Positions 8,243 to 34,189 of a DNA stretch of 36,211 nt are shown in pieces. The position numbers and the translations under genes are program-made. Source of the DNA: Bacillota bacterium (lineage in GTDB: Bacteria > Bacillota > Clostridia > Peptostreptococcales > Anaerovoracaceae); NCBI GenBank assembly GCA_029218545.1, contig JAQXRN010000241.1, positions 1-36,211 on the forward strand, written 5' to 3'. The notes beneath the pieces are model-generated. The model ran no database searches. It was not told the origin of the DNA and worked only from the letters and a program-made list of their open reading frames with translations. Within the stretch, counting starts at the first letter, position 1. Every line of letters starts with the position of its first letter.

Positions 8243-9301
8243 TTATTTTTTTGCCTTGTAGTTTTTCCAGTATTTGCTGTATAAGTCATCTGCTTCAGAA
8301 CCAAGATTCATGAGTGTTTCTGATTTTGCAAGTATATCCTGTGAAGGATTTAATACATCTGCAGTTGTCATATCTGCTATCTCTTTATTTGGAATCGCAT
8401 AAGTTAGATACTCAAAATTTGTAGCAGCAACCTTTCCATCAAGCATAAAGTTTATCCATGCTTCAGCGCCTTCTTTGTTAGCAGCATTAGATGTAATTGC
8501 CCAGCAGTCTGTCCAAACTTCTGTACCTTCCTTTGGCACAACGAAATCAATATTTTCATTTAATTCCTGTGAATATAACACTTCGCCTGAAGTTATTACT
8601 GCAAGGGCTGCAGACTCTCCAATCATTAGATCTCTTGCACTGTCGTTTGCCAGCTTGTAAACCAATGATTTTTGTTTCAGCAGAAGATCGGTCATTTCCT
8701 TTATCTGGTTTTCATCCGTTGTGTTCATTGAATATCCTAATATTTTGCCTGCAATCATGTACATTTCACGAACAGAATCAGGCATAATAATCTGATCCTT
8801 ATATTTTTCATCCCACAAATCAGTCCAGGAATCAATATCTTCAGCCTTTACCATAGTCTTATTATACATGATTCCGTATGTTCCCCATGTATGTGGAACG
8901 CTGTGCTTCATATCCGGATCAAAATCCTGGAAAAATGACTTCACATTGTCAGTTATATTTGCTGCATTTGGCACATTATCGTAGTTTATCTCACCTAACA
9001 AATCATTTTCAATAAGCTTTGCAATCATGTAATCTGATGCACAAATTACATCATACTTTGCTGTATCATTCTTGATAACAGGGAACAGCTCCTCGTTTGT
9101 ATCGAAATAGTCGATAATGACATCATATCCGGTCTGTTCTTCAAATTCATATTCTAAATCAGGATCGAAATAATCCCCAAAGCAATATACATAAACTTCT
9201 CCCTTTGAACCTTTCTTACTGCCGCCACAGCCGGCCATCAGCCCCGTAATCATCACAAAAATAAGCATCAGGGCAAAAACTTTTACAGCTCTCTTTTTCA
9301 T
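8243..9301 (-). CDS. potD: Spermidine/putrescine ABC transporter substrate-binding lipoprotein
   Basis: 352 aa; lipobox GLMAGC; VYVYCFGDYFDPDLEYEFEEQTGYDVIIDYFDTNEELFPVIK; downstream of potABC. Confidence 0.92.
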   Translation of the reverse strand: MKKRAVKVFALMLIFVMITGLMAGCGGSKKGSKGEVYVYCFGDYFDPDLEYEFEEQTGYDVIIDYFDTNEELFPVIKNDTAKYDVICASDYMIAKLIENDLLGEINYDNVPNAANITDNVKSFFQDFDPDMKHSVPHTWGTYGIMYNKTMVKAEDIDSWTDLWDEKYKDQIIMPDSVREMYMIAGKILGYSMNTTDENQIKEMTDLLLKQKSLVYKLANDSARDLMIGESAALAVITSGEVLYSQELNENIDFVVPKEGTEVWTDCWAITSNAANKEGAEAWINFMLDGKVAATNFEYLTYAIPNKEIADMTTADVLNPSQDILAKSETLMNLGSEADDLYSKYWKNYKAKK

Positions 9302-9345
9302 TTTTCTTTCCTTTCTTTAACGATGTAGATATCAATTTTTAACTT

Positions 9346-10143
9346 TTATCTGTTTTTTCTACTGCTTAAAATATTAACAATTACCAATATGATTAATACC
9401 AGCAGAAATATTACTGTTGATAATGCATATAATGTCGGTCTTATTCCAACCTTCACCTGACTGTAAATCAAGGTAGAAAGGGTATTTATTCCTGCTCCTC
9501 TGGTGAAATGTGTAATTACAAAATCATCAACAGACATAGTAAAGGATAATAAGAATCCTGATAATACCCCGGGCATAATATCCGGTAGAACCACTTTAAA
9601 AAAGGCATATGCAGGGGATGCGCCAAGATCCAGTGCTGCTTCGTATGTGCTGTTTTGAAGTTGTTTAAACTTCGGCATTACAGAAAGAATAACATACGGT
9701 ATGCAAAAGGTTATGTGGCTAAAAAGCACAGTCCCGTAATTAAGTGAAATTCCACAAACTACAAACATCAGCATAATGGATATACCTGTTACAATATCTG
9801 CATTTAACAGAGGTATATTATTTAATCCCATTATCATCAGCCTGCTTTTTTCCTTCATGGAATTCATCCCTATGCAAGCCAAAAGTCCAATAACAGTTGC
9901 TATAGCTGCCGCCCAGAATGCAATGGTTAAAGTATTAATCAGCGCATCCATAATTACTTTGTTTCCCAGCATTTCCTCATACCATCTGAAGGAAAAACCC
10001 ATCCATTTTGTCATTGTTTTTCCATCATTAAAGGACAGCACCATCAGAGTTAAAATTGGAAGATAAAGAAACAGCAGGATTGCTGCAAGGTACAGACCAC
10101 GACAAACCTTGGATGCTATTTTTCTAGTTTTAAAGTTCATCAT
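9346..10143 (-). CDS. potC: Polyamine ABC transporter permease
   Basis: 265 aa; permease EAA-like loop AALDLGASPAYAFFKVVLPDIMPG. Confidence 0.92.
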   Translation of the reverse strand: MMNFKTRKIASKVCRGLYLAAILLFLYLPILTLMVLSFNDGKTMTKWMGFSFRWYEEMLGNKVIMDALINTLTIAFWAAAIATVIGLLACIGMNSMKEKSRLMIMGLNNIPLLNADIVTGISIMLMFVVCGISLNYGTVLFSHITFCIPYVILSVMPKFKQLQNSTYEAALDLGASPAYAFFKVVLPDIMPGVLSGFLLSFTMSVDDFVITHFTRGAGINTLSTLIYSQVKVGIRPTLYALSTVIFLLVLIILVIVNILSSRKNR

Positions 10144-10961
10144 AGCATGTTTCCCTCCCCTTCTCTGTCAAATTTTTCTATCATAATCATACTGATTACT
10201 ATAAATACCATCATAACCAATGATAATCCGGCACCTAGATTCCAGTTGGAGCTTACGGTAAATTCCTGCTCTATGATGTTTCCAATGAGATTTACCTTTC
10301 CACCACCCAACATTGTGGAGATGGCAAAAGTGGTCAGAGACGGCACAAATACCATGGTTATTCCGCTGACTATTCCGGGCACTGAAAGTGGCACTATTAT
10401 TCTTTTTAAAACAGTTGCCTTGCTTGCCCCAAGATCATACGCAGCCTCAATGAGACTGTTGTCGATTTTAATCATAGCATTGTAAATCGGTAAAACCATA
10501 AAAGGTAAATAGTCATAAACCATGCCCAGAACTACCGCTGTTGGTGTATTTATTATGTCTAAAAGAGGCAACTCCAATGACTTAAGTATCAAGTTTATTA
10601 CGCCATTTCTTTCAAGTAATACCTGCCACGCCATAGTTCTAAGAAGGAAATTCATCCACATTGGCAGAATGAATACAAATATCATAAATCCCTTTTTGCC
10701 CAAATTACTGTCTTTAAGTATCAGCCCTAAAGGAAAAGCTATTATCAAACAGATAATAGTGCTTATAAAAGCAAGAAGTAATGACAGACCCAATGCCTGC
10801 GGATGGTCTCCGGTCACAATGGCAAAAATATTATCTACGGTAAAAGCTCCGCTTCTATCTGTAAGACCGTAAAAAGCGATTACTACCATTGGAATAATTG
10901 TTCCGCATAAAATAAACGCTAAAAATGGTCCGGAAAATATTCTTTTAATATTTCTATTCAT
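10140..10961 (-). CDS. potB: Polyamine ABC transporter permease
   Basis: 273 aa; EAAYDLGASKATVLKRIIVPLSVPG; 4-bp overlap with potC. Confidence 0.92.
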   Translation of the reverse strand: MNRNIKRIFSGPFLAFILCGTIIPMVVIAFYGLTDRSGAFTVDNIFAIVTGDHPQALGLSLLLAFISTIICLIIAFPLGLILKDSNLGKKGFMIFVFILPMWMNFLLRTMAWQVLLERNGVINLILKSLELPLLDIINTPTAVVLGMVYDYLPFMVLPIYNAMIKIDNSLIEAAYDLGASKATVLKRIIVPLSVPGIVSGITMVFVPSLTTFAISTMLGGGKVNLIGNIIEQEFTVSSNWNLGAGLSLVMMVFIVISMIMIEKFDREGEGNML

Positions 10962-12021
10962 CTAACGCCATCGCCTCCTCGTCTTCAGATTGCGGCTTAT
11001 GCATAATTTGAATGTTCTCCGGTGCAACCTTCATAGACACGCGAGTGCCTACAGGATAACTTGTTGTGTTCTGCACCAGCCATTCGAAGCCCCCTGCTTC
11101 AATGCACATTTCGTAGTGAACTCCAATAAACACATTGGAAGTTACCGTTCCGTCTATTGTACCTTCTCCGGGCTTTCCAATAATGATGTCTTCAGGTCTT
11201 ATTACAACGTCGACAGGCTTATTTCTTCCAAAGCCTTCATCTATGCAGGAGAAAATGTGCCCGCAAATCTTAACGACTCTGTCCTCAATCATTACAGCAT
11301 CAATGATGTTGCTGTCACCGATAAAGTCTGCTACAAACGCATTCTCAGGCTCGTTATATATTTCTTCAGGTGTACCCATCTGCTGAATGTAACCCTGATT
11401 CATTACTACCACCTTATCGGACATGGTAAGTGCTTCTTCCTGGTCATGAGTTACATAAAGGAAGGTTATTCCAAGTTCCTTCTTCAGTCTGATCAGCTCG
11501 TACTGCATCTCCTGCCTCAGCTTCAAGTCAAGTGCTCCTAAAGGCTCATCCAAAAGCAGTATCTTTGGCTCGTTTACGATGGCTCTTGCAATTGCAATTC
11601 TCTGCTGCTGTCCTCCGGAAAGAGAATCAACGGAACGTTTCTCGAACCCGCTGAGGTTTACAAGCTTAAGAGCATATTTTATTTTATCATTTATATATTC
11701 CTTACTTTTGCCGCTTATTTTCAGTCCAAAAGCGATGTTTTCAGCAATGTTCATGTTTGGGAACAGCGCATACTTTTGAAAAACGGTATTCAACGGTCTC
11801 TTGTTTGGTGCAAGATTTGTAATATCCTCACCCTTAAAGAGCACCTTGCCTGTGTCAGGAGTTTCAAAGCCTCCCAAAATTCTTAATGTAGTTGTCTTAC
11901 CGCATCCTGATGGTCCAAGGAGCGTTATAAATTCATTTTCTTTTATTTTAAGGTTAAATTCGTCAAGAACCAGTTCCCCGTCAAAAGACTTGGAAATGTC
12001 ACAAAATTCAATTAATGGCAT
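10954..12021 (-). CDS. potA: Polyamine ABC transporter ATP-binding protein
   Basis: 355 aa; Walker A GPSGCGKTT, signature LSGGQQQRIAIARA, Walker B ILLLDEPLGALD, C-terminal TOBE-like region. Confidence 0.95.
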   Translation of the reverse strand: MPLIEFCDISKSFDGELVLDEFNLKIKENEFITLLGPSGCGKTTTLRILGGFETPDTGKVLFKGEDITNLAPNKRPLNTVFQKYALFPNMNIAENIAFGLKISGKSKEYINDKIKYALKLVNLSGFEKRSVDSLSGGQQQRIAIARAIVNEPKILLLDEPLGALDLKLRQEMQYELIRLKKELGITFLYVTHDQEEALTMSDKVVVMNQGYIQQMGTPEEIYNEPENAFVADFIGDSNIIDAVMIEDRVVKICGHIFSCIDEGFGRNKPVDVVIRPEDIIIGKPGEGTIDGTVTSNVFIGVHYEMCIEAGGFEWLVQNTTSYPVGTRVSMKVAPENIQIMHKPQSEDEEAMALDE

Positions 12022-12029
12022 TTTTTAAT

Positions 12030-12563
12030 TTAGAAACTCGGTGGCGTACTTACCCACAGAATTTCCGCTCCTTTCTTCGATGTAATGTAGTGTTTTTTAT
12101 CGGGCGTGTAGTAAAAGGCCTCTCCTGCCTTGGCAATATATTTATCACTGCCCAAACATATTGTAATCTGCCCTTTAAGAACATACCCAAATTCCTCTCC
12201 TTCATGTGGATTGTCAGGATATGTCTGTCCTCCTGCCTTCAGGGAAAGCCTTATGGGTTCCATCATGTTCTTCTGAGCATTAGGTATTATCCACTCTGTC
12301 ATATTGCCCAGTTCCTCATCTATTTTTTCAAAATAATCAGATTCACCAAAGACAATCTGTGACTTCTCTTCTTTTGCAAAGAATTCGCTGATGGTCATTC
12401 CAAGACATTGCAGAATATCTTCTAAAGTTGAAATTGACGGTGAAGTTAAATCGTTCTCAAGCTGGGAAATAAAGCCCTTTGATAGTTCGCTTCTATCTGC
12501 CAGCTCCTCCTGAGTCAAACCGTTTAATACTCTTAATTCCTTTATTTTGGCACCTATGTCCAC
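12030..12563 (-). CDS. XRE-family regulator with C-terminal cupin (PuuR-like)
   Basis: 177 aa; N-terminal HTH (LNGLTQEELADRSELSKGFISQLEND), cupin (PHEGEEFGYVLKGQI); first gene of the pot operon. Confidence 0.92.
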   Translation of the reverse strand: MDIGAKIKELRVLNGLTQEELADRSELSKGFISQLENDLTSPSISTLEDILQCLGMTISEFFAKEEKSQIVFGESDYFEKIDEELGNMTEWIIPNAQKNMMEPIRLSLKAGGQTYPDNPHEGEEFGYVLKGQITICLGSDKYIAKAGEAFYYTPDKKHYITSKKGAEILWVSTPPSF

Positions 12564-31972: not shown

Positions 31973-33154
31973 CTATTTCTTTTCAGTAACCGGCTGCAGA
32001 ATTTCTCTCTGACGGGATATTTCCTCCCATCTTGGAATCTTATCATAAATTTGTGCAAAGTCCTTCATTGCAGCAGGAATATCGATATTCTGAGGGCATA
32101 CCTTGGCACACTTGCCGCAGGCGATACATGCTGCCGGCTTCTTGTCGTCAGGGAGTGCTTCCACAACCATTACGGTATTGAAGGAAGGAATTATCTTCGC
32201 ATCGTTATATACCGATAAAAGCATAGGAATATCAAGTTCTCTAGGACAGTCACTGCAGCAGTATCTGCACGCAGTACACGGAACAGAATCCTTCATACCT
32301 TCTGCAACGTCCATAAGAAGCTTCTTTTCAGCTTCAGAAAGCTTTCGTTCTTCCCTGAAGGTCTCAATATTCTCCTTCATCTGACGGATATTGGAAACAC
32401 CGTTTAATACTACCTTCACATTATCCATATTGTGGAAGAATCTCAATGCGAGAGACGCGGGAGTATCTTCAGGACTTATGGCCTTCATCTGTTCAGCAGC
32501 CTCACCTGTAACATTGGCAAGCTTACCTCCTCTAAGAGGTTCCATAACCCAAACGGGGATTCCACGCTTTGAAAGGATTTCGCACTTTTCTCTTGCCTTC
32601 TGAAGAGACCAGTCCAGATAATTCAATTGTATCTGACAGAACTCAATGGCATCGCCAAAAGCATCCAGAATTGCTTCGAGATTTTCAGCCTGAGCATGAG
32701 TGCTGAGTCCCAGGTGCTTAATTCTGCCAAGTCTTTTTTGCTCTTTAAAGTATTCAATAATGTCCCACTGAGGATCTGTATAGACGCTGATAGACTTTTC
32801 ATAAACATTATGATACAGATAAAAGTCAAAATATTCCACCCTGCACTTTTCTAATTGCTTTTCAAATATATATGCAGGGTCATATGTAGAGCTTATCTGA
32901 TGTCCCGGGTACTTGTCCGCCAAGTAAAAACTGCTTCGGTCATGTTTTGAAAGCGCCTCGCCTATGACCAGCTCTGATTGCCCGGTATGATATGGCCATG
33001 CAGTATCGAAGTAGTTTACTCCGTTTTCTATTGCCATATCTACCATTTCCTGAACCTGGACCTTATCAACGGTTCCGTCTTCAAGTAGCGGCAGGCGCAT
33101 AGCGCCAAAGCCCATAAGTGAAATTTTTTTGTCTTTAAATTCTCTGTAAATCAT
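31973..33154 (-). CDS. Aldo/keto reductase with C-terminal ferredoxin-type Fe-S domain
   Basis: 393 aa; NYFDTAWPYHTGQSE, FYLYHNVYE, CTACRYCCSDCP and CIACGKCAKVCP. Confidence 0.92.
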   Translation of the reverse strand: MIYREFKDKKISLMGFGAMRLPLLEDGTVDKVQVQEMVDMAIENGVNYFDTAWPYHTGQSELVIGEALSKHDRSSFYLADKYPGHQISSTYDPAYIFEKQLEKCRVEYFDFYLYHNVYEKSISVYTDPQWDIIEYFKEQKRLGRIKHLGLSTHAQAENLEAILDAFGDAIEFCQIQLNYLDWSLQKAREKCEILSKRGIPVWVMEPLRGGKLANVTGEAAEQMKAISPEDTPASLALRFFHNMDNVKVVLNGVSNIRQMKENIETFREERKLSEAEKKLLMDVAEGMKDSVPCTACRYCCSDCPRELDIPMLLSVYNDAKIIPSFNTVMVVEALPDDKKPAACIACGKCAKVCPQNIDIPAAMKDFAQIYDKIPRWEEISRQREILQPVTEKK

Positions 33155-33265
33155 ATTTTTTCTTTATCTCCTCGACTGGCTGCTGTTAATTATTTCTGTG
33201 GTAAAACTACGGATACCACACTTTTCAACAAGCAAAATTTGTCCATTTTTCAACGATTTGCCTTT

Positions 33266-33398
33266 TTATCCACATAGCATAGTAAAATCGTATACGATTT
33301 TATGAACATGACCTTGTGGATAACATCAAATCATTGCAACCCAGTGTTTTCAATGGTTGAGCCCTTGTTATCGATTTGTCAAGAGAAAGTTATCCACA
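33266..33398. other. DnaA-box cluster: three exact TTATCCACA sites
   Basis: TTATCCACA at 33266-33274 (+) and 33390-33398 (+); TGTGGATAA at 33315-33323 (-). Confidence 0.6.
33283..33302. repeat. 20-bp perfect palindrome TAAAATCGTATACGATTTTA
   Basis: Read directly; lies between DnaA boxes 1 and 2. Confidence 0.85.
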
Positions 33399-33478
33399 TA
33401 TTTCTTACATTATTATAACATTTATTGAATTAGTTTTCTACAGCAACTATAATATGAGTATCAGGGAGGTATTTTGAC

Positions 33479-34189
33479 ATGTTGAAAATTGAGAACTTAA
33501 CCAAGATATACGGCGACAAAAAGGCCGTTGATAACTTATCACTTCACATTAAACCGGGGGAAATATATGGATTTATAGGACATAACGGTGCCGGCAAAAC
33601 AACGACCATCAAATGCTGCTGCGGAATACTTCAGCACGAAGAAGGAAAAATTTTCATTGATGGAACAAACCTTTCAGAAGCACCTCTTGCCTGTAAGCAA
33701 AATCTGGCGTATATTCCTGATAACCCGGATTTATATGACTTTATGACAGGGATTCAGTTTCTGAACTTCGTAGCAGATATCTTCAGCGTTGATGCAGAAA
33801 TCCGTCAGAATCTCATCCACAAATATGCCGACATGTTCGAGCTAACTGCAGATCTTGCACAGCCTATATCAGCCTATTCACACGGTATGAAACAGAAGCT
33901 CGCCATCATTTCAGCTTTGATTCACAGCCCTAAACTCATAATAATGGATGAACCCTTCGTTGGACTTGACCCTAAGGCTTCCCATCTTCTCAAGGAAACC
34001 ATGAGGGAATTATGCAACAATGGTTCTGCAATCTTTTTCTCAACACATGTTCTTGAGGTTGCTGAAAAACTGTGCGACAAGGTTGCCATAATTAAAGGCG
34101 GAAAACTGATTAAATCCGGAACAATGGAAGAAGTTAAGGGCGATGCCTCTTTAGAATCTGTATTTTTGGAACTGGAGGCAGCAAAATGA
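33479..34189 (+). CDS. ABC exporter ATP-binding protein
   Basis: 236 aa; GHNGAGKTTTIKCC, YSHGMKQKLAIISALIHSPKLIIMDEPFVGLDP. Confidence 0.93.
   Translation: MLKIENLTKIYGDKKAVDNLSLHIKPGEIYGFIGHNGAGKTTTIKCCCGILQHEEGKIFIDGTNLSEAPLACKQNLAYIPDNPDLYDFMTGIQFLNFVADIFSVDAEIRQNLIHKYADMFELTADLAQPISAYSHGMKQKLAIISALIHSPKLIIMDEPFVGLDPKASHLLKETMRELCNNGSAIFFSTHVLEVAEKLCDKVAIIKGGKLIKSGTMEEVKGDASLESVFLELEAAK

Follow-up and report, generated by a model that had tools for sequence, protein, structure and literature searches.

A cluster of DnaA boxes around a central palindrome

The window, i.e., the whole stretch of DNA that was analysed (36,211 nucleotides from the draft genome of a gut clostridium of the Anaerovoracaceae), contains a divergent gene pair formed by an aldo/keto reductase (AKR) gene with a 4Fe-4S domain (31973-33154, minus strand) and an ABC transporter ATPase gene (33479-34189, plus strand). 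The gene starts at 33154 and 33479 leave an intergenic region of 324 bp (33155-33478, no strand), in which the element described here occupies about positions 33200-33410. Neither neighbour is conserved together with it. The three exact copies of the DnaA box TTATCCACA were confirmed where the initial annotation had placed them, namely, box 1 (33266-33274, plus strand), box 2 (33315-33323, minus strand, inverted) and box 3 (33390-33398, plus strand). The perfect 20-bp palindrome TAAAATCGTATACGATTTTA (33283-33302, no strand), a probable GntR/FCD operator, was confirmed as well. Its conserved core ATYGTATACRAT (33287-33298) lies 12 bp from box 1 and is followed after 16 bp by box 2, and box 3 stands at +103 from the core start.

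Two further sites, absent from the initial site list, were recognised in the same region. Box 0, a DnaA-box variant TTTTCAACA (33222-33230, plus strand), lies 44 bp before box 1 and emerged from a profile of 77 elements, and a degenerate DnaA box TTATGAACA (33300-33308, plus strand) overlaps the right end of the palindrome and is TTATCCACA-like in many relatives. A conserved TTTTCAA motif (33347-33353, plus strand) is found at about +60/+61 from the core. The degenerate box TGTGGTAAA that had been noted at 33197-33205 is present, but it is without counterpart in relatives. An AT-rich stretch does follow box 3, but it is not a conserved unwinding element, since 76 elements showed mild AT enrichment only and no DnaA-trio.

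An exact count found no TTATCCACA in the window beyond these three. Shuffled sequences gave an expectation of 0.42 exact copies per window, and at least three copies anywhere occurred in 1 of 100 shuffles. A search of the contigs of the draft genome (2.08 Mb, 266 contigs) returned 43 exact copies, a density that predicts about 1.6e-4 triples within 133 bp per genome. Such clusters are thus not common at random; had they been so, this would have spoken against the annotation. No RNA families or tRNAs were found in the window. Elsewhere in it (8243-12563), ORF translations indicate a probable polyamine ABC transporter operon with a substrate-binding protein, two permeases and an ATPase, accompanied by an XRE-cupin regulator.

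A conserved composite element

A DNA search with the intergenic region recovered the element in every one of the genus's five other genomes and in some further genomes of the family. It also revealed a second copy in the source genome (G000:C262:25591-25753, L042) beside an N-acetylmuramoyl-alanine amidase gene, and it is this copy, rather than the one in the window, that is syntenic with the genus mates. The cluster is therefore kept in close relatives, at another locus; its absence from them had been named as grounds for rejecting it.

Species genomes were then scanned with the pattern TCCACA - N9..19 - ATYGTATACRAT - N9..19 - TGTGGA, which at least 119 stretches matched. Although this pattern permits 121 gap combinations, all 83 elements among the matches listed showed gaps of 11 or 12 bp and 16 bp only, giving the fixed order of box 1, 11 or 12 bp, ATYGTATACRAT, 16 bp and inverted box 2. 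The columns fixed by the pattern were excluded as evidence of conservation, and we relied on the spacing, on box 3, which lies outside the pattern, and on the other motifs. Box 3 was found with at most one mismatch at +99 to +103 in 71 of the 77 nonredundant elements among the matches listed, and in 5 more of these 77 it was located at +91/92, about one helical turn closer; chance would account for its placement in less than 1% of cases per element. Box 0 follows the profile TTTTC[AC]ACA, 44 bp before box 1, and takes the canonical form TTTTCCACA in some relatives, including copies from three genomes (G096, G158 and G174). The boxes fit TTWTCCACA, and so do the clusters near dnaA in these genomes. 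Two further conserved motifs, TTATGTMAACC and TGTTCG, lie to the left of box 0, in the interval of about -77 to -60 from box 1; in some genomes of the genus, the former doubles as the -35 of a leftward promoter.

Genomes with several copies, such as G076 with about ten, allowed the limits of the module to be placed at about -75 to +115 around the core. Within these genomes, the copies agree mainly at the motifs over about 200 bp, and their flanks show random identity. The conservation of only the motifs among copies within a genome indicates selection on these motifs and marks the element as a discrete module. The exception is G086, in which near-identical copies (L258 to L261) lie next to one family of long secreted-looking proteins that was apparently duplicated with the element. 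Elements also occur in pairs with a separation of about 2 kb (L252 in G177, L078 and L152), those of L078 and L152 being mutually inverted around two short genes, one of which encodes an LUD-like protein. Judged by its motifs and their spacing, the cluster in the window is one copy of a composite conserved element of about 200 bp of the Anaerovoracaceae.

Distribution of the element

A sequence model of the element matched 115 of 151 sampled Anaerovoracaceae genomes, 108 of them strongly, and 36 were without a match. Most genomes gave two matches, one per strand of the near-symmetric core, and hence carry one copy. When 240 genomes from across the class were sampled, only four matched at E<=1e-7, all of them Anaerovoracaceae. 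Those weak matches in other families of the order that were read proved to be coding sequence or DnaA-box clusters lacking the palindrome; tight clusters of the latter kind occur at L367 (G193) and L369 (G199). Named matches of the pattern scan include Anaerovorax, a member of the Anaerovoracaceae, as well as Emergencia, Mogibacterium, Hornefia, Baileyella, Sinanaerobacter and [Eubacterium] infirmum, which we take to belong to this family too. Many of the scan matches were MAGs, and a few stood under other labels.

The palindrome recurs at the promoter of a GntR/FCD regulator gene

The initial annotation did not address the likely cognate regulator of the palindrome. We found the same palindrome, as a 16-mer, over the -10 region and start of a gene whose product carries GntR and FCD domains and whose nearest solved structures are other GntR regulators; there it takes the form TTGAC...TGnTAAAATTGTATACRATTT. 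A palindrome at the regulator's own promoter, the feature by which we recognised an operator, was present for the close orthologs, that is, for 14 of the 15 with at least 53% identity, and for four more distant ones. In two genomes (G001 and G146), the promoter copy is accompanied by TTATCCACA at the 12-bp spacing of the element. Moreover, the regulator and the element tend to occur together (97 genomes with both, 28 with neither, 11 and 15 discordant; Fisher 2.6e-11, uncorrected for relatedness). Many orthologs at 37 to 51% identity are without the palindrome at their own promoter, though their genomes carry the element, so that the pairing of GntR with the palindrome is firm for only part of the family.

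The palindrome is thus a probable autoregulatory operator of a single GntR/FCD regulator. Like autoregulated GntR/FCD repressors, this protein combines the two domains with a palindrome overlapping its own promoter. Unlike for those repressors, the other exact sites lie only in the DnaA-box element and not in catabolic promoters: in five genomes of the genus (G000, G001, G003, G004 and G005), the exact palindrome was found solely at the GntR promoter and in the element or elements.

Orientation relative to the replication fork

Local GC skew identified the strand running from box 0 through to box 3 as the C-rich one for 76 of 80 elements, and likewise for 26 of 28 elements of a second set that came mostly from genomes with several copies. 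Where dnaA was mapped and the assembly consisted of one to three contigs, which was the case for nine genomes, 15 of 17 elements were oriented against the fork, its direction being assigned on the assumption that the terminus lies opposite dnaA. Single boxes, sampled in two genomes, were oriented 19:8; composition accounts for part of the polarity of the element, therefore, but not for all of it. The distance of the element from dnaA is not conserved (fractions from -0.47 to +0.46). Pure titration does not explain this orientation bias, and the polarity suggests that something beyond titration is involved.

Alternative explanations

The position of the window element between divergent genes had raised the idea of a DnaA-controlled promoter, in which DnaA and GntR would jointly regulate the neighbours (the AKR and ABC genes in this case). 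At some B. subtilis sites, DnaA serves as a transcription factor (PMC4447404), and in the promoter of the GntR gene the palindrome presumably acts as an operator. Across elements, however, the flanking genes differ (tandem in 43 cases, divergent in 17 and convergent in 8, counts that are not independent since many of the loci are orthologous), no conserved -35/-10 accompanies the core, and the AKR-ABC context is absent from the genus mates. We had looked there for the corresponding empty AKR-ABC site and abandoned this when no close ortholog of the ABC permease was found (best identity, 40%). Since the elements of relatives adjoin unrelated genes and even lie between convergent ones, the element is not tied to promoters in general, and we regard transcriptional control of the neighbours as unlikely. 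The occurrence of several copies in some genomes and, in G086, of near-identical copies adjoining a single gene family could also reflect a repeat that is mobile or spreads passively and serves no cellular function. Yet the element is mostly single copy, its neighbourhoods recur (amidase, AlaX and AraC genes), and copies within a genome have diverged except at the motifs and share no ends, which makes such a repeat very improbable.

A secondary or unusual origin, another of the initial proposals, would be compatible with a DnaA-box cluster that has an AT-rich flank. Against it, dnaA has DnaA boxes of its own, with no GTATAC nearby, in the source genome and in most of ten relatives, and in two closed genomes (G109 and G112) GC skew flips sign at dnaA but shows no such switch at the element. 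Neither feature by which we would recognise oriC, a skew switch at the site or a DnaA-trio with a marked unwinding region, was found at the element, and we give an origin hardly any credence. In the same two genomes, the element lies away from the skew-defined terminus, and a reading of TTATGTMAAC as a dif half-site was discarded. The strong polarity relative to the fork would rather fit an element tied to fork passage (restart, pausing, lagging-strand priming or segregation) instead of to the control of free DnaA. The inverted boxes 1 and 2 could form a stem in single-stranded DNA, and the window copy indeed folds with a z of about -5. This stem is not maintained, since third positions mismatch in 25 of 77 elements and two of five other folds were weak or absent; a box 1/box 2 hairpin is possible in the window, but we rejected it as a conserved structure. 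Moreover, the element usually occurs once per genome and at varied distances from dnaA. A role in fork passage therefore appears rather doubtful.

Discussion

Of the functions initially proposed for the cluster, a titration or reactivation locus fits best, as a putative function, and neither the secondary origin nor the divergent promoter as a general function was borne out. Somewhat in favour of this reading, we propose a chromosomal DnaA-binding element with a central GntR/FCD repressor site that alters free or active DnaA and sets the timing of initiation. The sequences themselves display the parts of the element, their fixed spacing and phasing, their conservation and restriction to one family, the association with the GntR gene and the polarity towards the fork; binding by DnaA and by GntR, a ligand and an effect on initiation are inferred. 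DnaA would bind the boxes as an ordered multisubunit complex with fixed phasing. A dimer of the GntR/FCD repressor, which would repress its own gene via the same palindrome, would bind in the middle of the element and there help or hinder assembly of the complex. The complex would alter the amount or the nucleotide state of free DnaA, by titration or by ATP/ADP switching as at datA/DARS, and the changed level of free or active DnaA would set initiation timing, with GntR strengthening or weakening the effect according to a small-molecule signal. Sequence does not distinguish between titration, datA-like hydrolysis and DARS-like reactivation.

In E. coli, datA, DARS1 and DARS2 are short noncoding DnaA-box clusters away from oriC that carry IHF/Fis sites (PMC5295017) and keep a conserved relative distance from oriC (PMC5010248). 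The element resembles them as a noncoding DnaA-box cluster away from oriC with a probable site for a second protein. It differs in that this second conserved site is, to judge from its sequence, a GntR-type palindrome, in its six or so ordered sites with the palindrome at the centre and in its orientation bias. Its distance from dnaA is, unlike theirs, not conserved, and for this reason we do not class it as datA/DARS; the likeness is anatomical, and no sequence relationship is claimed.

B. subtilis harbours six DnaA-box clusters outside oriC, and deletion of all six advances initiation (PMC13220808, PMC5295017). Compared by description, these share with the element the presence of DnaA boxes outside oriC in a Firmicute, and the element differs by its rigid spacing, its embedded putative operator of a dedicated regulator and its usual single copy. 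At some B. subtilis sites, DnaA requires Rok in vivo (PMC4447404), and here too a second DNA-binding protein, in our case a putative one, would shape DnaA binding; Rok is a nucleoid-associated protein, whereas the partner of the element would be a GntR/FCD repressor with an operator-like palindrome. According to a 2026 review, B. subtilis is without datA and DARS, and regulators balancing DnaA-ATP and DnaA-ADP are not known to exist in it (PMC13220808). In C. difficile, a bipartite origin with the same box consensus is located at dnaA (PMC7561715). No GntR-linked DnaA locus, and no pairing of DnaA with GTATAC, was described in the open-access journal literature searched.

More tentatively, the regulon of the GntR/FCD protein might consist of little more than its own gene and the DnaA-box element, and might couple a metabolic signal to the availability or nucleotide state of DnaA; the element would then belong to a system that resembles datA/DARS, arose independently in Clostridia and has a polarity relative to the fork. 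Its strong fork orientation is a second feature, unpredicted by the titration model. Since this small conserved element, with its DnaA boxes and a probable dedicated regulator, is present in culturable Clostridia (Emergencia, Anaerovorax and Hornefia), control of initiation in a Firmicute via a specific chromosomal DnaA locus, tied to metabolism, is testable there. The element may thus act as a switch for adjusting the replication of the chromosome in bacteria for which the literature searched holds no such locus.
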